This document shows, one piece after another, positions 2,365-21,222 of a stretch of DNA of 25,811 nucleotides. Source of the stretch: Spirogloea muscicola (lineage: Eukaryota; Streptophyta; Zygnematophyceae; Spirogloeales; Spirogloeaceae); the NCBI GenBank assembly GCA_009602725.1, contig WELB01000411.1, positions 1 through 25,811 on the forward strand. Direction: 5' to 3'. Position 1 is the first letter of the stretch; each line of letters starts with the position of its first letter. The notes below the pieces were generated by a model. It searched no databases. It was not told the origin of the DNA and saw nothing but the letters and a program-made list of their open reading frames with translations. A program made the translations under genes and the position numbers.

Positions 2365-2960
2365 ATCAGGCCCGTCAGAGGCAGACGCCCAATGTGCCAC
2401 CAAGGTTGGGTATGCGGTCGCCTGCGCCGCTCGGGCTAAAGAGCTCAAGTACGCCGACCATCCGCGGGAAGACGAGTTCTTCCCGCTGGCAATTGACACG
2501 CCTGGGGCGTTGGGCGCTCGGAGGCTCGAGTTGCTCACCCAGCTCGCTACGCCATCGCCCGTCGCTTCCATGGGGAGCCGGTGGACTTCCCTGCAGCCGG
2601 ATCGCTAGCGCAGGTGTACCGGATGTGCTTGGCCGTCTCGCTGCAGCGGTCGATGGCCGCGCGCTGCACCTGCGGGCCGGCAGAGCCCTCGCTGTTGCCT
2701 CTGGCTCTGGCCAGGGGACCAACTTCCAGGAGCCTAGCGTCTCTGACCTGAGGCTGCTTAGCAGGGGTTACTGAGTGTTCCGTAGCTGCTTTGTTTTTTG
2801 TGTGCTTGTTTTTCTTAGCGCTTCCCCTGGCCCCCTTCTCGTCCTTCGTAGATTCTTATTTGGGCTGGCTTTTCCAGCCCCTATTCTCAATGGGCGAGCA
2901 CTTTCTTCTATACTGGCCTTGGGGTTCAGGGCGAGGCCGAGGGTGGCCTGTCCTACTCCT
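2365..2960 (+). mobile_element. Decayed 3' end of an RLE-type non-LTR retrotransposon
   Basis: A degenerate copy of the C-terminal end of the element found intact at 14723-19064. Readable stretches are VGYAVACAARAKELKYADHP, DEFFPLAIDTPGALGARRLE and LAQVYRMCLAVSLQRSM, ending in the family terminus SVSDLRLLSRGY and a TGA at 2772-2774. These fall in different frames with internal stops, so the copy is dead. It is followed by the family 3' UTR, including the stem-loop GGGCTGG-CTTTT-CCAGCCC at 2862-2880 and the box CTATTCTCAATGGGCGAGC. The copy is 5'-truncated, as is usual for target-primed insertions. It lies directly upstream of a CSA exon, in what should be a CSA intron, on the opposite strand. 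Confidence 0.9.
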
Positions 2961-3656: not shown

Positions 3657-3944
3657 TGAAAGATCAGCGGGCATTGAGCGCGCGTTGGCTGGCCAAGAAG
3701 GCATGGGTAGGCGTGAAGGTCTGGATCTGCTGCTTGAGGAGCCTTCTACCGGAGAACTCCGTCAATCGGTACGTGACTGGTGCATTGGCAAGGCACGCTT
3801 GTTATGCTCGACTTGACGCTCTGAACATACGTCTCAGAAATCGTTTATTCCGCATTACTTAACTGTTTTATCTACAGAAGCTGCATTGTCTGCATCTTTG
3901 CAAGTACTAAGCAAAGTCCCGAATAGAGCGTGTAGAGTTACTGT

Positions 3945-4012
3945 TCATTTCGGGCTGGCTTTTCACAGCCCTTGCCCCCATTGGGAGTGCCACTTCTTCT
4001 ACTGTGACGTAA
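3945..4012 (+). mobile_element. Solitary retrotransposon 3' tail
   Basis: Contains the family stem GGGCTGG-CTTTT-CACAGCCC at 3952-3970, followed by a diverged copy of the conserved box (CCATTGGGAGTGCCACTTCTTCT). No ORF part of the element precedes it. The 11-base word AAGTCCCGAAT occurs at 3914-3924 and again at 4047-4057, flanking it, which would fit a target-site duplication. This is either an extreme 5' truncation or a short non-autonomous element borrowing the tail. Confidence 0.7.
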
Positions 4013-4507: not shown

Positions 4508-4536
4508 GAGATCCTCAATGGGCGAGCCCTTTCTTA
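4508..4536 (+). mobile_element. Very short retrotransposon tail remnant
   Basis: Only the terminal box of the family tail remains (TCCTCAATGGGCGAGCCC followed by TTTCTTA). It stops where the AT-rich mitochondrial insertion starts. The stem-loop upstream of the box is missing. Confidence 0.6.
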
Positions 4537-4900: not shown

Positions 4901-4959
4901 TTGGCTACAAGTTGAAGCTCATAACGGTGATATTGCAGGTTCGAGCCCTACTAAGCCTA
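4901..4959 (+). pseudogene. 3' portion of a mitochondrial tRNA, probably tRNA-Met(CAU)
   Basis: Contains an anticodon-loop-like CTCATAA, then a T-arm (GCAGG-TTCGAGC-CCTAC, one mismatch in the stem) and an acceptor-like 3' end (TAAGCCTA). The matching 5' half, which should begin about TAGGCTTAGTA, is not present upstream, so the gene is truncated. It belongs to the same mitochondrial insertion as the nad5 piece. The isoacceptor call rests on the loop alone. Confidence 0.5.
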
Positions 4960-4970
4960 CTGTTACAAAC

Positions 4971-5006
4971 GGGTGTATAGCTCAGTTGGCAGAGCATTGG
5001 GCTTTC
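4971..5006 (+). pseudogene. 5' half of an organellar tRNA, probably tRNA-Lys
   Basis: GGGTGTATAGCTCAGTTGGC followed by AGAGCATTGGGCTTT is the acceptor strand, D-arm and start of the anticodon arm of an organelle-type tRNA, very like trnK(UUU). It breaks at the anticodon and continues into unrelated sequence leading to a retrotransposon tail. No 3' half follows, so it is a broken copy. Confidence 0.7.
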
Positions 5007-5028
5007 TTCTTTCTCGAAGTCTTATCCG

Positions 5029-5050
5029 CAGTCAATCTGGCCGCGCTTCC
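5029..5050 (+). repeat. 22-base word shared with 19065-19086
   Basis: CAGTCAATCTGGCCGCGCTT followed by CC occurs here and, in the same 22-base form, at 19065-19086. In both places it abuts a retrotransposon tail: here it precedes a minus-strand tail, there it follows a plus-strand tail. It may be a piece of an element subfamily or a shared insertion context. Confidence 0.8.
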
Positions 5051-5130
5051 TTTCCGCAGGGGGTGAAGGAAGTGGTCGCCCGTAGAGAAAGGGCTGTGAG
5101 GGCTGTGAAAAGCCAGGCCGAAAGAGAAGG
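5048..5130 (-). mobile_element. Retrotransposon 3' tail, inverted
   Basis: On the minus strand this reads the family tail with the stem-loop region GGCCTGGCTTTTCACAGCCC at 5099-5118, then a box TCTCTACGGGCGACCACTTC. The orientation is opposite to the tail remnant at 4508-4536, so the mitochondrial insertion sits between oppositely oriented tails. Confidence 0.75.
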
Positions 5131-13961: not shown

Positions 13962-14060
13962 GCCTGCCTGCCTCTGGCCCCCTTCTCATACTTTGGGCTG
14001 GCTTATTTTTTGGGCTGGCTTTTCCTGCCCCTATCCTCAACGGGCGAACCCTTTCTCGAG
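13962..14060 (+). mobile_element. Retrotransposon 3' tail
   Basis: Shares the 3' UTR word CTGGCCCCCTTCTC, the stem region GGGCTGGCTTTTCCTGCCCC (14012-14031, one side decayed) and the box CTATCCTCAACGGGCGAACC with the other family tails. A second GGGCTGGC at 13994-14001 suggests a small internal duplication. No ORF part is attached. Confidence 0.75.
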
Positions 14061-14639: not shown

Positions 14640-14722
14640 AGGCCTCCCCCTTCGCTGCTGCCTCTGGCTCTGGCCAGGGGACGCACTTCCAGGAGCCCAG
14701 CAGCTCTGATCTGCGGCTGCTT
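14640..14722 (+). mobile_element. Old copy of the element's ORF end, cut at its last codons
   Basis: Reads AAASGSGQGTHFQEPSSSDL then RLL, nearly identical to the terminus of the decayed copy at 2690-2765 (VASGSGQGTNFQEPSVSDLR then LLSRGY). It breaks off at CTTAG, where the terminus should continue as CAGGGGTTACTGA, and GC-rich sequence of the intact element follows. It happens to be in frame with the intact element's ORF, which makes that ORF look longer at its N-terminus. Confidence 0.8.
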
Positions 14723-14791
14723 AGAGGGCCGCCGCCGCCACCCCTCCTAAACCCCGGGCCGCCGCCGGCGTCGCTGCCGGCGGCGCCCGCC

Positions 14792-17700
14792 ATGGGGTCC
14801 GCGGCGCGCCGGCCCCCTCCCGGCCTGTCCCTCGCACCCGCCGCAGCTGCTCCCGCCGTCGCCCTGCCGCCCGTTGCCGCCGCCCTCGCCTCCGCCGGCC
14901 CGCTCCCCGTCGCCTCAACCGCGCGCTGCCGGCGCCGCCGACGGAGTCCGAGCCCCGAGTTGCTCCAGGAGTCGCTCCAGGCGAAGCATTTGTGCGAGGC
15001 GGTCAGGGCGCCTCGTCCCAGACTCAGGCTGGAGCAGCAGCGTTCCGCCGCGCCTCCGCCTCCAGCGCCGTCGCTGCTCCCCGCCGTACTCGCCGCCTCC
15101 TGCGTCCGCTTCGTCTGCAGGCCCGCTCTGCCGCCGTCGCCGCCGCCATTCCATCTCCACACGCCACCGACGTCCACCGCAACGCCGCCATCGCCCTCCC
15201 CATCCCCGCCGCCGCCGCCCCCACCCCCTGCGGAGTCCGAGGGCGTGCGGTGCCCCCGCTGTCCAAAGGTCTGCAAGAATGCGCACGGTCTTGCGATTCA
15301 TGCGCACTCCTGCTTGAAGCGCGCCGGCCTCGCCGCCGCGACGCCGGCTGTGGCCGTCGAGGCTTGCGGCCCCACCATCTCTGTCCAGGCCGTCCCTGCT
15401 CAGGAGCATCACGCGGAGGAGCATATATCGCCTCCCGCCCCAGAGATGTGTGGGGCACCTGCTTTATTGACTCCGCCCTCGAGACATGAAGGGCCCCCCG
15501 AGGTGAACCCGGTCTCTCCGCAGGGTGCCTTGCCCCATGAGCGCGATGCTGCCCCTCATATTCCTGTGAGCGTGCCTCCCGTGGCAGAAGGGCCGCAGCT
15601 GCAACAACCCGCCGTGCCGCCGCCGCCCCCACCATCCCCATCTCCCGTGCCGTCCACACCCGCCCCGCCGTCGTCACCATCCTCACCTTCCCCGCCGCCT
15701 CCGACACCGCCGCCGTCGCCGACGCCAGCGTCACCACCGTCGCCGCCGGGGTCGCCGCCGCCTGACCCGCGCCCCCCCCCGCTGAGCCAGCCACCCGCCT
15801 CGTCATCACCGCCGCCTTCTCCGGCCGAGCCTCTACGGTGCCGGCACTGTCAGCGCCCCTGGCCAACCCAGCGTGCGCGGACCTCACACGAGCGCGCTTG
15901 CCAGCAGCAGGCCAATCGTGCTGCACAGACGCGGGCCACGTCCGCAGCGGGCGGCCGCGGCCGTGGTGGCAGCCCAGGCCGGCGTGTCCCAGCAGGGCCG
16001 ACCCCTCCAGGTCCCCATCACTGGCAATGGGCGGCGGACCTTGACCTGGATGTGGTCCACCGGCAGGAGGCTCTCCCACTCCTGCGCCATGTGCCGCGGT
16101 GGGCGCGCCCACACCTGCGCCGCGCCCTCCGCCCCGTTCTGCAGCGCATCGTGGTCGACCACAGGGACGCGGCCGCCTGGAAAGTCTTCATCCTCTTCCC
16201 CAGGCTGCTGCTCGGGCGAGCACCCACCCAGGGCCACGGCCAAGGCCGCCAGCTGCTCCTGGACCGCATCTACCTCTTTGAGTGCGGGCGATGGGAGGAG
16301 CTCTTGGCGCGGCACGACGCTGCAGTGGCTGCAGCCTCGGCAGGCCGCCGCACTTCGCAGACAGCGCCTTCGTCTGACAGGGCGGCCAGTGTCCGCCGCG
16401 CTCTCCGGTATGGCCATGCCGGGGAGCTCTCAAGAGCCGTCCAGGCGCTCGATGATTCGGTGTTGGCGCCGGCGACTGAGGCCACGCGGGAAGCCCTCTC
16501 GTCCCTCCACCCCCCGGCGCGCTCTCCCCTGCCTTCGTGGTTGGCTTCCTACGTCCCGCAGGCGGAGGTGGCCCTTGATGCGGCAGCCTTCCGCAAGGCC
16601 TTGCAGAGCAGCCGGCGCGCAGCTGCAGGCGGCCCCTCGCGCATGGTCACGGAGCATTTGAGGGAGCTCTTCCTCGAGGGGGACGAGGCGGACTTTCGGG
16701 CGCTGCACCAGGTGTGCCAACACATGGCCCGGGGTCACATCCCTGCCAGCATCCGCAGTGTGCTCTGCGCCAGCACCCTGCTAGCCCTCAGCAAGGCCAA
16801 TGGCGGCGTCCGCCCCATGGCCATCGGCGAGGTTCTGTGTCGCCTGGTGGGCCGGGCACTCTGGCAACAGCACGCCGCTGCGGCCCAGACACATCTGGCC
16901 CCACACCAGTATAGCGCAGGCCTGCGGAGCGGCGGCGAAGCAGTGGTCCATGGGGTGCGGGCCTCCCTCGACTTGCACCCCGAGTGGGTGGTGTTGGCAG
17001 TGGACGTCCGCAATGCATTCAACTGCGTCGACCGCGCAGCTGTCGCCGAGGAGCTCCGTGACGCCTTCCCCACCCTGCTGCCGTTCTTCCGGCTGGGCTA
17101 CGGCCAGCCCAGTGATCTCCTATGGCGGCGTGGCGCCGGAGGGGTGGAGGTCCTTCAGTCTTCCACAGGCACGCGTCAGGGGGACCCGCTGGCGGGGTTC
17201 TTCTACGCGCTGGCCCACGACCGTGCCCTGAAGGCCACGGCAGCTGCTCACCCGGGCGTCCTCATGCCCACGTGTGCCGACGACACCACCCTAGTCGGGC
17301 CCGCAGACGAGGTCTTGGCTGCCTCTGCCACCCTCGAGGCGCAGCTGACGGAGATCGGCCTGGACATCCGCGCGTCGAAGTGCAGCGCTTGGTCCCCACA
17401 AGGGCTGCCAGCCCTCCTCCGCCTACCCTCCGGCTGTCAGACACCAGCGGGGGGCCTCCCACTCCTCGGGGTTCCCTTGGGCTCTCCGGCCTTCGTGGAC
17501 GAGCAGCTGCGGAGCAAGCTGCAGGAGCAACTCAGGCCGGCGGCCCGCCTCCCGGAGCTGCGCGACATGCAGCTAGGGCTCGCCATGCTGACGCGAAGCT
17601 TTGCCCAACGTCCTCAGTACCTGGCGCGAGCCCTCCCCCCCTCCCCGGCGGCGCAGGCTGCCTATGCAACCTTGGATGCAGGTATCCTCGCCAGCGCAGC

Positions 17701-18973
17701 GGCCCTGATCCAACACCCGGCCTTCCTGGCGACGCCGGCTGCCGTGCACCAGGCCTCCCTGCCTGTGAGCCGCGGGGGTCTGGGCTGCGGTCCCATGGCA
17801 CGTGCCTGCCGGGCAGCGCACCTGGGGAGCTGGGCGCAGGTTGCGTCGTCGGTGGCCCAGCGTTTCATCCGGCATGGGGGTTGCCCTCTGGAGCAGGCGG
17901 CAGCGGACGTGGAGAGTGGCCCGTACCCCTTCCAGGCGGCTCTCCGCTCTGCCCGGGATGCGCTGCTTGCAGATCACCCCGCCCTGGTGCCGCTGGCCGT
18001 CCCGTTCGCGCACCTCGCGCGCACGGCCGACCTCCGGGCCCAAGCTCGCTTCATGGCGGAGGTGGATGCGGCCTCTTTCTCCACGGCGATGGGGCTTTTG
18101 TCTCCTGACGACCTCCGGGGGCGCGCGCGGCTGCTCTCGGCGTCCTCACCAGGGGCGGCTGCCTGGTTGTCTGCCCTGCCGGTCCACGACGCACTTCGGA
18201 TGCCGGACGACGCCTTCCGCACGGCGGTGCACCGCCTCCTCGGCCTCCACCCCCCCTGCCTCAGTGGGGTACAGCAGTGTGAGTGTGGTGAGCGCGGTTC
18301 CGACGCGGCATCGCTGGCAGCTCACATGCTGAGGTGCGCATGGGGCGGGGAGCGGACAGGAACGCACGACCTGCTGCGAAATGCCATGTTTGGCATCTTC
18401 GTCGAGGCCGGTTATGCGGTGGCGCTCGAGAACACGAGCGTCATGCCTCCGACCGCTGGGGCGGATGGCCGCATCCACACCCGGCGCGCCGACCTCGTCG
18501 CCAGCGCGCTCGGCGGGGGGCCTCGGCTCATCGCAGACGTCGTCACCACTGACAGCTTTGCTTCCAGCAGCGCAAAACGCTCGTCGGAGGAGGCGGGCTA
18601 CGCAGTCGGCCAAGCAGCGGGCGAGAAGGAACGGAAGTACTCGGACCACCCGGTGGGCGACGAGTTCGTTCCACTGGCAGTGGACGTGCACGGAGCCTTT
18701 GGCTCCAAATGGCTTGACTTGCTCCACCGCCTGGCGCGGCGTGCAGCGGCCCCCCGCCTCCGGCAGCAGGGCGAGCAGCCCGGCCTCAACGTAGCCGGGG
18801 CCTTCGCTCAGGTTTTCCGTATGCGTTTGGCCGTCTCGATGCGGCGGTCCCTCGCCTTCGCGGTTCACTTGCCCGCAGGCCGAGCTTTGGCGGCGGCCTC
18901 CGGCTTCCGTCGGGGCGACGTCTTTCCGCCAGCTAGCTTCTCGGACCTGCATCTCCTGTCTAGAGGTTACTGA
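14792..18973 (+). CDS. Retrotransposon polyprotein: zinc fingers, reverse transcriptase, RLE endonuclease
   Basis: Uninterrupted 1393-residue ORF (numbered from M at 14792; ATG 14504 is in frame but lies before the older ORF-end remnant). Two C2HC fingers with identical C-x2-C-x12-H-x3-C spacing at residues 154-174 and 350-370 are separated by a long Pro/Ser/Ala-rich linker. The reverse transcriptase core has motif A LAVDVRNAFNCVD (Asp738), motif B GTRQGDPLAG (793-802) and motif C CADD (Asp830, Asp831), with Cys in place of the usual Tyr or Phe. A C-x-C-x12-H-x3-C cluster at 1163-1182 precedes a restriction-like endonuclease region: RRADLV (Asp1234), IADVVTT (Asp1249), EKERKYS (Lys1279/1282). 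The C-terminus is SFSDLHLLSRGY. The catalytic residues are all present, so the protein may be active. Clade assignment needs a tree. Confidence 0.92.
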   Translation: MGSAARRPPPGLSLAPAAAAPAVALPPVAAALASAGPLPVASTARCRRRRRSPSPELLQESLQAKHLCEAVRAPRPRLRLEQQRSAAPPPPAPSLLPAVLAASCVRFVCRPALPPSPPPFHLHTPPTSTATPPSPSPSPPPPPPPPAESEGVRCPRCPKVCKNAHGLAIHAHSCLKRAGLAAATPAVAVEACGPTISVQAVPAQEHHAEEHISPPAPEMCGAPALLTPPSRHEGPPEVNPVSPQGALPHERDAAPHIPVSVPPVAEGPQLQQPAVPPPPPPSPSPVPSTPAPPSSPSSPSPPPPTPPPSPTPASPPSPPGSPPPDPRPPPLSQPPASSSPPPSPAEPLRCRHCQRPWPTQRARTSHERACQQQANRAAQTRATSAAGGRGRGGSPGRRVPAGPTPPGPHHWQWAADLDLDVVHRQEALPLLRHVPRWARPHLRRALRPVLQRIVVDHRDAAAWKVFILFPRLLLGRAPTQGHGQGRQLLLDRIYLFECGRWEELLARHDAAVAAASAGRRTSQTAPSSDRAASVRRALRYGHAGELSRAVQALDDSVLAPATEATREALSSLHPPARSPLPSWLASYVPQAEVALDAAAFRKALQSSRRAAAGGPSRMVTEHLRELFLEGDEADFRALHQVCQHMARGHIPASIRSVLCASTLLALSKANGGVRPMAIGEVLCRLVGRALWQQHAAAAQTHLAPHQYSAGLRSGGEAVVHGVRASLDLHPEWVVLAVDVRNAFNCVDRAAVAEELRDAFPTLLPFFRLGYGQPSDLLWRRGAGGVEVLQSSTGTRQGDPLAGFFYALAHDRALKATAAAHPGVLMPTCADDTTLVGPADEVLAASATLEAQLTEIGLDIRASKCSAWSPQGLPALLRLPSGCQTPAGGLPLLGVPLGSPAFVDEQLRSKLQEQLRPAARLPELRDMQLGLAMLTRSFAQRPQYLARALPPSPAAQAAYATLDAGILASAAALIQHPAFLATPAAVHQASLPVSRGGLGCGPMARACRAAHLGSWAQVASSVAQRFIRHGGCPLEQAAADVESGPYPFQAALRSARDALLADHPALVPLAVPFAHLARTADLRAQARFMAEVDAASFSTAMGLLSPDDLRGRARLLSASSPGAAAWLSALPVHDALRMPDDAFRTAVHRLLGLHPPCLSGVQQCECGERGSDAASLAAHMLRCAWGGERTGTHDLLRNAMFGIFVEAGYAVALENTSVMPPTAGADGRIHTRRADLVASALGGGPRLIADVVTTDSFASSSAKRSSEEAGYAVGQAAGEKERKYSDHPVGDEFVPLAVDVHGAFGSKWLDLLHRLARRAAAPRLRQQGEQPGLNVAGAFAQVFRMRLAVSMRRSLAFAVHLPAGRALAAASGFRRGDVFPPASFSDLHLLSRGY

Positions 18974-19043
18974 GCGTTCCCTGGCTGATGTCTTAGTCCT
19001 AGTCGTTCGCACTCAGGCTCCCTCAGACTGTGTCCATTCTTTT

Positions 19044-19062
19044 GGGCTGGCCTTTCCCAGCC
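19044..19062 (+). repeat. 3' UTR stem-loop of the intact element
   Basis: GGCTGG and CCAGCC pair around a short pyrimidine loop. The same hairpin position recurs at 2862-2880 (perfect 7-bp stem) and 3952-3970. Decayed forms are at 14012-14031 and, inverted, 5099-5118. A form with an enlarged loop is at 19182-19217. A conserved 3' hairpin is a plausible recognition structure for the element's own reverse transcriptase (inference). Confidence 0.75.
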
Positions 19063-19064
19063 AC

Positions 19065-19086
19065 CAGTCAATCTGGCCGCGCTTCC
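19065..19086 (+). repeat. 22-base word shared with 5029-5050
   Basis: Exact match of the 22-base word seen at 5029-5050, here wedged between the tail of the intact element and the start of the next truncated copy. Confidence 0.8.
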
Positions 19087-19087
19087 T

Positions 19088-19245
19088 CTTAGCAGGGGTT
19101 ACTGAATGATTCGTAGCTGCTTTGTTGCTGTTTCTTAGCGCTTCCCCTGGCCCCCTTCTCGTACTCTGTTCATTCTTTTTCGGGCTGGCTTTTTCTTTTC
19201 TGCTTTTACCAGCCCCTGTCCTCAGTGAGCGAGCACCTTCCTTCT
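19088..19245 (+). mobile_element. 5'-truncated retrotransposon copy (last 5 codons plus 3' UTR)
   Basis: Starts at CTTAGCAGGGGTTACTGA, the codons for LSRGY and stop, so nearly the whole ORF is missing. It continues through a 3' UTR very close to that of the copy at 2768-2900: CGTAGCTGCTTTGTT, then CTTCCCCTGGCCCCCTTCTC. The stem GGGCTGG (19182-19188) pairs with CCAGCCC (19211-19217) across an enlarged loop, and the box CTGTCCTCAGTGAGCGAGC follows. It ends about 35 bases before the NFS1 start codon, so it supplies most of the NFS1 5' flank. Confidence 0.88.
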
Positions 19246-19280: not shown

Positions 19281-20672
19281 ATGGCGCTGCGCCGCGCGTT
19301 GCGCCTCCGCCCGCCGCCGCCCGCGCTGCTGCGCGCCGCCTTCTCCTCCCTCTCCTCCTCCCCGGCCACCCCACCCGCGACTGCCGCCGCCGCCGAGGCC
19401 GCCGCCGCCGTGGCCGCCGCCACCGCGCCGTGTGGCATGAGCGTCAAGGGCGTGCGCATGGAGGGGCGGCCGCTGTACCTGGACATGCAGGCGACGTCGC
19501 CGCTGGACCCGCGGGCGCTGGACGCCATGCTGCCGTTTCTGGTGGAGCGGTTCGGCAACCCGCACTCGCGGACGCACCTGTACGGTTGGGAGAGCGAGGC
19601 TGCGGTGGAGGCGGCGCGCGCGCAGGTGGCGGGCCTGGTGGGCGCGTCGCCCAAGGAGGTGGTGTTCACGTCCGGCGCCACGGAGGCCAACAACGTGGCC
19701 ATCAAGGGCGTCGCGCGCTTCTACCGCGACCGCAAGCGGCACGTGGTGACGACGGTGACGGAGCACAAGTGCGTGCTGGACTCGTGCCGCCACCTGCAGG
19801 CGGAGGGGTTCGACGTCACCTACCTGCCCGTGCGCCCCGACGGCCTCGTCGACCTCGCCCAGCTGCGCGCCGCGCTGCGCCCCGACACCGCGCTCGTCTC
19901 CGTCATGGCCGTCAACAACGAGATCGGCGTCATCCAGCCGCTGGAGGCGATCGGCCGCCTCTGCCGCGAGCACCGGGTGTTCTTCCACACCGACGCGGCG
20001 CAGGCACTGGGCAAAATCCCGCTCGACGTCGACGCCATGCACATCGACCTCATGTCGCTCAGCGGCCACAAGGTGTACGGCCCTAAGGGCATCGGCGCGC
20101 TGTACGTGCGCCGTCGGCCCCGCGTGCGCCTCGAGCCCCAGATGAGCGGCGGTGGCCAGGAGCGCGGCCTGCGCAGCGGCACTGTGCCCACCCCCCTGGC
20201 CGTCGGCTTCGGCGCCGCCTGCGAGGTGGCGGCGCATGAGATGGCCAACGATACTGCCCACGTCGAGCGCCTCCGCCAGCGGCTCTACGACGGCATCACC
20301 TCGCGCCTGCAGGGCGTCGTCATCAATGGCAGCCCGGAGCACCGCTACCCGGGCAACCTCAACCTCTCATTTGCCTATGTGGAGGGAGAGAGCCTGCTGA
20401 TGGGCCTGAAGGAGGTTGCGGTGTCCAGCGGCAGCGCATGCACCAGCGCCAGCCTGGAGCCCTCATACGTGCTTCGCGCGCTTGGGGTTGAGGAGGACAT
20501 GGCACACACATCCATCCGCTTCGGCCTGGGCCGCTTCACGACGGTGGAGGAGGTGGATCGTGCCGTGGAGCTGACGGTTGCCCAGGTGGAGAAGCTGCGG
20601 CAGATGAGCCCGCTGTGGGAAATGGTCCAGGAGGGCATCGACCTCAAGACCATTCAGTGGAGCCAGCACTAG
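19281..20672 (+). CDS. NFS1: Cysteine desulfurase, mitochondrial NFS1 (IscS type)
   Basis: PLP enzyme that takes sulfur from L-cysteine as a persulfide for Fe-S cluster assembly on the ISCU scaffold in the mitochondrial matrix (family knowledge). Length 463 residues, complete. Residues 1-52 are an Arg/Ala/Ser-rich presequence ([10 protein letters not shown]). The fold then follows: [52 protein letters not shown] (His162), [29 protein letters not shown] with the PLP lysine Lys264, [17 protein letters not shown], and the catalytic-loop [20 protein letters not shown] with Cys387. The C-terminus [20 protein letters not shown] is eukaryotic NFS1-like. I chose ATG 19281 because the presequence starts there; the frame stays open upstream to 19122 only through retrotransposon tail. 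The gene has no introns, unlike its neighbours, and is convergent with the phosphatase gene. Confidence 0.97.
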
Positions 20673-21114: not shown

Positions 21115-21222
21115 CAGCATCAATCTTTACCTTTCCTTGTCCTCTCAAAAATGACCTGCCTCGGAACACAGCATCAATCTTTACCCTTCCTTGTCCTCTC
21201 ATAGATGACCTGCCTCAGAAAC
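21115..21222 (-). repeat. 54-base tandem duplication across the phosphatase stop codon
   Basis: Copies at 21115-21168 and 21169-21222 differ by a few bases. On the minus strand the first copy encodes RQVIYERTRKGKD and the TGA stop. The second repeats RQVIFERTRKGKD and another in-frame TGA, just downstream. The period is 18 codons exactly. Confidence 0.92.

Follow-up and report, generated by a model that had tools for sequence, protein, structure and literature searches.

R2 retrotransposons are under development as an RNA-templated gene-insertion tool. In these elements (R2Bm, R2Tg and their relatives) a single open reading frame (ORF) encodes one or more N-terminal fingers, a reverse transcriptase (RT), a CCHC knuckle and a C-terminal restriction-like endonuclease (RLE), according to the layout given for R2Bm (PMC10499050). 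Insertion into 28S rDNA is a feature of the R2 clade, and R2 families without 28S specificity have also been described (PMC5035012). In the CRE clade, which comprises SLACS/CZAR/CRE and the fungal MoTeR/FoTeR and has one or two fingers, the knuckle and nuclease of SLACS/CRE follow the signature C[X1-3]C[X7-8]H[X3-4]C[X9-10]RHD/N.X19-33.E.X9-21.R/KPD.X12-14.D/E, from which the printed versions of MoTeR1 and FoTeR deviate as well (X6, RAD; PMC12857005). A poly(A) 3′ tail and a spliced-leader target, both features of the trypanosomatid CRE elements, are not required of the fungal members. NeSL/Utopia and HERO have an RLE as well; Utopia proteins carry one to three N-terminal fingers (PMC4640811), and HERO members often show no site specificity (PMC3636483, PMC4640811). 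By RT phylogeny, LINEs of the RLE class are older in origin than those of the APE class (PMC4640811). As for green algae, a table from 2013 gives L1, RandI and RTEX as their LINEs (PMC3747384).

The window analysed here, a single stretch of DNA of 25,811 nucleotides, contains an element (hereafter A) which, we are confident, belongs to the autonomous non-LTR retrotransposons (LINEs) and, within them, to the RLE class. This agrees with the first-pass annotation, as an RT is found together with RLE motifs that follow the published signature in order, if not exactly. Element A is apparently full-length (14725-19087, plus strand, 4363 bp) and is flanked by a perfect 5-bp target-site duplication, CTTAG, with its left copy at 14720-14724 and its right copy at 19088-19092, both on the plus strand. 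It lies within the 3′ end of B2, an older 5′-truncated relative, and splits it in two: the left part (14649-14724, plus strand) holds the end of the B2 ORF, which was the target of A, and the right part (19093-19245, plus strand) the stop codon and the 3′ untranslated region (UTR). When A and one CTTAG are taken away, B2 aligns without a gap to another relative, B1 (2686-2909), across the junction, and the restored junction set against B1 reads ...GGCTGCTTAG/CAGGGGTTACTGA... (the slash marks the junction). The duplication is short; by chance alone, 5 bp would agree at a given junction with a probability of about 0.001. Duplication and restored target together set the limits of A; the limits proposed at first, 14723-19064, thus described a real element whose 3′ edge was placed 23 bases short. 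The perfect duplication, the intact ORF and the nesting in a truncated copy support an insertion later than the B copies, and the earlier suggestion of a recent event therefore stands. It is very likely that A was recently inserted by target-primed reverse transcription (TPRT), the hallmarks of which (5′ truncation, a constant 3′ end and target-site duplication) are all found in the window, in the form of eight 3′ ends, CTTAG and the restored target.

The single ORF of A (14792-18973, plus strand) encodes 1393 amino acids. It starts at the first ATG within the element (14792, context GCCATGG) and ends with the stop codon at 18971-18973, so that the roughly 1390 uninterrupted codons counted before are, more exactly, 1393. 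Upstream of it there is a GC-rich 5′ untranslated stretch of 67 nt (14725-14791, plus strand). Strong folding (z -2.78) is seen in the initial 106 nt of A (14725-14830), where only 1 of 200 shuffles folded at least as well. The 5′ end matches no Rfam family, and an HDV-like ribozyme, considered as a candidate there, was rejected, as Rfam gave no match in 14650-15000 even at E 5. It might be assumed that A is dead or domesticated and no longer moves, its ORF being open either by chance or for the sake of a host function. On one hand, the DNA is 71% GC and therefore poor in stops, and three of its peculiarities described below, namely CADD in RT motif C, THD in place of RHD and a long knuckle, could be losses. 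On the other hand, the longest open run in A extends over 1415 codons, whereas the maximum in 2000 mononucleotide shuffles was 610; the acidic residues of both RT and RLE are all retained, as are the closing K and Y; and the perfect duplication and the nesting point to a late insertion. Moreover, a domesticated gene would need neither a 3′ tail of its own nor a duplication. A dead or domesticated copy seems unlikely in our opinion, and element A, judged by its sequence, may still be competent at present.

The N-terminus of the A protein is Pro-rich and holds two fingers, each of the form C-X2-C-X12-H-X3-C. Finger 1 occupies residues 154-174 (15251-15313, plus strand; Pfam zf-C2H2 below cut-off, E 0.13) and finger 2 residues 350-370 (15839-15901, plus strand; Pfam zf-C2H2_4 below cut-off, E 0.96). 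The paired C2HC fingers with identical spacing that had been pointed out are therefore real, but two N-terminal fingers as such are not exceptional, since R2B and R2C have two (PMC5035012) and Utopia one to three. That both fingers are of the C2HC type and equally spaced may be unusual. The RT core (16601-17410, plus strand) contains VDVRNAF, QGDPL and CADD, and it matches RVT_1 with E 2.3e-10 in Pfam, or 1.5e-11 with a 361-aa RT region as the query. As expected of the RLE class, the catalytic aspartates D738, D830 and D831 are intact. When residues are counted from the ATG at 14792, these three and the endonuclease candidates D1234, D1249, K1279 and K1282 are located exactly where the first-pass annotation had put them, and motif C does read CADD in the ORF of A.

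Searches of the PDB pointed to R2. With the 361-aa RT region, phmmer found three sequences at E 10 or less, each of them R2 (E 1.8e-4, 0.0049 and 0.0064), and with a 988-aa query two sequences up to E 1, again both R2 (E 0.02 and 0.026). A PDB profile search with the A3 profile, which includes one unverified row and was left out of the class assignment, returned 18 sequences, R2 at the top (4.1e-14), followed by retron and group II RTs, and by LINE-1 ORF2 from 1.9e-4 on. Remote RT matches in NCBIfam were a group II RT (E 0.0011, 18.1 bits with a cut-off of 300) and Drt2 (E 0.25). Matches of the A protein to TetR_C_13 (17.4 bits for the whole protein, 21 bits for a subregion) and to EAD5 (13.4 bits) were below the cut-off of 27 in both cases and were disregarded. 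R2 is the nearest element to A among those with a solved structure, at an RT identity of 23-24%, and the two have the same layout. Unlike R2, element A has two fingers of the C2HC type and CADD in motif C. Its target is the tail of the B2 LINE rather than 28S rDNA, and no rRNA family reached the Rfam gathering level in the window.

The CCHC knuckle and the RLE motif are found at 18278-18640 (plus strand) and read C[X1]C[X12]H[X3]C[X8]THD.X19.E.X18.RAD.X14.D, followed by KERKY. Compared with the SLACS/CRE signature (PMC12857005), A has T instead of R in RHD, A instead of P, 12 knuckle residues instead of 7-8, and 8 residues after the knuckle instead of 9-10. The exact signature and spacing of the CRE clade are thus absent, and the strict SLACS/CRE pattern finds no match in the A protein. 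The succession typical of the RLE class, a C-C-H-C knuckle and then H-D/N, E, R/K-P/A-D and D/E, is present in order. A relaxed pattern, which was defined after seeing A, matches the A protein at a single place and none of 100,000 shuffles of this protein; the RLE core without the knuckle was met in 261 of 100,000. Element A and the CRE clade have in common the order of the RLE motifs, the closing K and Y, and the one or two fingers, and the RAD variant of the PD motif is shared by A, MoTeR1 and FoTeR (PMC12857005). Unlike CRE, A has THD for RHD and a knuckle of 12 residues, and its target is a LINE tail, neither a spliced-leader gene nor a telomere repeat; the poly(A) tail and spliced-leader target of the trypanosomatid members are both missing from it. 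This separation from CRE is drawn from published descriptions of the clade. A PD-(D/E)XK-type fold of the A nuclease can only be inferred from its sequence, because the AlphaFold models were uninformative (mean pLDDT 39.4 for 988 aa alone and 37.1 for 261 aa with one B1 fragment) and no convincing match to the RLE domain was found in the PDB by sequence (three non-nuclease matches with E from 0.24 to 0.94, and none up to E 10 in further searches).

In comparison to NeSL/Utopia and HERO, which likewise have an RLE, element A is devoid of recognizable Ulp1 protease and RNase H, as Pfam matched none of APE, Ulp1 protease and RNase H anywhere in the A protein. The Ulp1-like cysteine protease that marks NeSL sensu stricto is therefore not detected by Pfam in A. 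The U2 snRNA gene, the target of Utopia, is not the target of A either, since A sits in B2; no U2 match reached the Rfam gathering level in the window. One could also imagine that A is a Dualen/RandI element, thus one with both APE and RLE, which has lost or hidden its N-terminal APE. RandI does appear among the green algal LINEs in the 2013 table (PMC3747384), and Dualen encodes an APE along with a PD-(D/E)XK-like nuclease (PMC3636483). However, neither an exonuclease-endonuclease-phosphatase nor an RNase H domain was matched, be it in the N-terminal 575 aa or in the whole protein, and the N-terminus is the Pro-rich region with the two fingers; by Pfam, A has no N-terminal APE beside its RLE. 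Besides, the host is a plausible rather than a proven green alga. Such an origin appears very improbable. As the features specific to R2, Utopia, NeSL, Dualen and the trypanosomatid CRE elements that we tested are absent from A, we place it in the RLE class as a new member.

Membership of A in a clade or family that already has a name, e.g. CRE, HERO, R2, R4, NeSL/Utopia or Ambal of Repbase, is nevertheless probable. An RLE layout with one or more N-terminal fingers is common to A, CRE, Utopia (PMC4640811) and R2 (PMC5035012). In addition, an unverified RT fragment of a widespread animal retrotransposon type scored 108 bits against A, whereas two R2 segments scored 48-51 and 100 shuffles of the fragment no more than 22, which suggests that the true clade of A is not R2. 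An RLE fragment of the same animal type, also unverified, matched A with E 2e-7 and 28% identity. It should be weighed against this that R2 is the sole named element compared by sequence, and that this animal type was not found in the viral, plasmid or genome contig collections scanned for it. In its anatomy, A shows nothing beyond known LINE biology; moderately unusual are the equally spaced C2HC fingers, CADD, THD, the long knuckle and the nest.

Eight 3′ ends of the family, belonging to two lineages, are present in the window (A, A2 and B1-B6; seven on the plus strand and one on the minus strand), with no second full-length copy among them. The further truncated copies and tails noticed at first are hereby confirmed and their number extended, A's own end included, and the past mobility deduced from them is borne out. 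B1 (2408-2909, plus strand) is a degraded 5′-truncated relative; 354 of its positions align to A, with 66% DNA identity. Its pieces matching A fall in three frames, and B1 is a dead copy. A tail profile built from A, B1, B2 and B3, the last being a 3′ tail only (13968-14056, plus strand), found three additional ends: B4, again a 3′ tail only (3942-3999, plus strand; E 2.4e-6), B6, a 3′ tail on the minus strand (5065-5128; profile match 5128-5070, E 1.2e-4, the end at 5065 set by eye), and B5, which is very short and the weakest of them (4511-4536, plus strand; E 0.022). In controls, the best E was 1.8 on the reversed window and 0.57 among 20 block shuffles. A2 is a 21-nt A-type tail (5032-5052, plus strand) with a 23-nt exact match to A at 5029-5051, and it is bounded by copies of TCCGCAG at 5025-5031 and 5053-5059. 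A tRNA-like 5′ half precedes it, and we considered a tRNA-headed SINE with A's tail at 4971-5052; this reading is not preferred because the A2 tail has its own 7-bp TCCGCAG repeat on either side. The A2 (plus) and B6 (minus) tails stand with 3′ end facing 3′ end, about 12 bp apart (5025-5128). Between A and B1, dN is 0.30 and dS 1.37, which gives dN/dS of about 0.22 (104 codons in three B1 pieces, thus few codons, and dS near saturation). A ratio this far below 1 would be expected if both lineages, A and B, had been under purifying selection.

The 3′ UTR of A (18974-19087, plus strand), which ends in GCGCTTCCT, has neither poly(A) nor a terminal tandem repeat. It contains a hairpin, GGGCTGG-CCTTTC-CCAGCC, at 19044-19062. 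Identity of the hairpin is 17/18 between A and B1 and 17/19 between A and B2, as against 34/70 and 40/70 upstream of it and 14/25 and 12/25 downstream. Within the 3′ UTR, conservation in these comparisons is thus highest in the hairpin, and this fits a recognition of the RNA 3′ end. The same hairpin or a version of it occurs in all tails of the window except A2 and B5, which are too short to include it; B3 and B6 have an imperfect stem, and B2 a longer loop. Among the four tails folded (z -0.63 for A, -2.35 for B1, -1.23 for B2 and -0.39 for B3), B1 alone clearly exceeds its shuffles in stability. Judged by conservation rather than covariation, the hairpin might be a signal for 3′-end recognition.

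In the mechanism that we propose, the A protein would attach to the 3′ end of its own RNA, near the short hairpin, while the N-terminal fingers would bind DNA. The C-terminal nuclease, presumably of the PD-(D/E)XK type, would nick the target, and the nick would prime reverse transcription. First-strand synthesis, when left incomplete, would give rise to 5′-truncated copies and bare tails. Both the parts of A and the remains it has left match TPRT driven by a protein of the RLE class, a process described for R2Bm (PMC10499050). The window offers a clean natural case, comprising an intact element, an exact target, a duplication and a hairpin conserved between two diverged lineages, and 3′-end recognition becomes directly testable with a conserved tail hairpin and a known target.

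No common sequence follows the eight tails by eye, and strict site specificity is thus unlikely. The 3′ flanks of the two A-type ends (CTTAGCAGGGG and TCCGCAGGGGG) share GCAGGGG, and the six B flanks, again by eye, do not. A loose, GCAGGGG-like target motif or preference of the A lineage is possible, two events giving no consensus. Both A-type insertions in the window lie within a B copy or about 5-10 bp off one; as B copies make up 4.5% of the sequence minus A, the chance of this for both is about 0.002 (two events, post hoc). The 3′ ends of the family are also clustered, with a mean nearest-neighbour distance of 501 bp and a probability of 0.009 under uniform placement (seven events, post hoc), but clustering of ends would also be expected from insertion-tolerant intergenic DNA. 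It is conceivable that A and B make up a separate clade of RLE-only LINEs, marked by the two C2HC fingers, CADD, THD and the long knuckle, in which the A lineage prefers sites in or beside the tails of its relatives, perhaps guided by a GCAGGGG-like motif, and so nests in itself; we find this decidedly unlikely. A LINE nested in LINE relatives is known from Zepp of Coccomyxa/Chlorella (PMC3446292). Zepp is listed as LINE/L1 (PMC11005252), whereas A has an RLE and no APE. If self-targeting were true, this would be an RLE family that builds nests of itself, as Zepp does with APE.

Outside the window, no relatives of A were found in viral contigs, by either a protein pattern or a 23-nt DNA pattern, or in a collection of genome contigs; of the protein-pattern matches in viral and genome contigs, none was confirmed by tblastn. 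Nor was there a match to A in phages and plasmids by protein, in E. coli genomes by near DNA, or in phages by distant DNA. Six plasmid records were obtained by distant DNA (70-73% identity over 4-7% of the query) and were set aside as low complexity, because they correspond largely to the GC-rich, Pro-rich stretch of A. As the collections scanned are prokaryotic or viral, absence of relatives from them says little. The window appears to be eukaryotic, and a green algal host is plausible in view of its GC content, its genes and a locus resembling a permuted tRNA gene. In the literature searched, Repbase reports apart, we came across no RLE-only LINE of green algae; should the host belong to them, A would add such an element to a group tabulated with L1, RandI and RTEX.

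A cysteine-desulfurase-type gene (19281-20672; Aminotran_5, E 2.5e-88), which we take to be NFS1-like, is located downstream of A as one uninterrupted ORF. Its apparent start codon (19281) follows the end of the B2 tail by 35 bp and the end of A by about 190 bp; owing to this closeness, the promoter or 5′ UTR of the gene may fall in retrotransposon sequence. Near this gene, on the minus strand, an OCRL-type inositol phosphatase gene is spread across at least three ORF pieces, with phosphatase and ASH domains above cut-off and RhoGAP just below. At 4918-5003, a tRNA-like 3′ half (CTCATAACGG...GGTTCGAGCC...TAAGCCTA) comes before a tRNA-like 5′ half (GGGTGTATAGCTCAGTTGGCAGAGC...), an arrangement typical of circularly permuted tRNA genes, which have been reported in Auxenochlorella (PMC12636532). 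This reading is a weak one, as ARAGORN accepted 116 of 440 artificial joins; neither ARAGORN nor Rfam called a tRNA in place at 4918-5003. Finally, a 54-bp tandem duplication is present at 21115-21220, its two copies being 92% alike.
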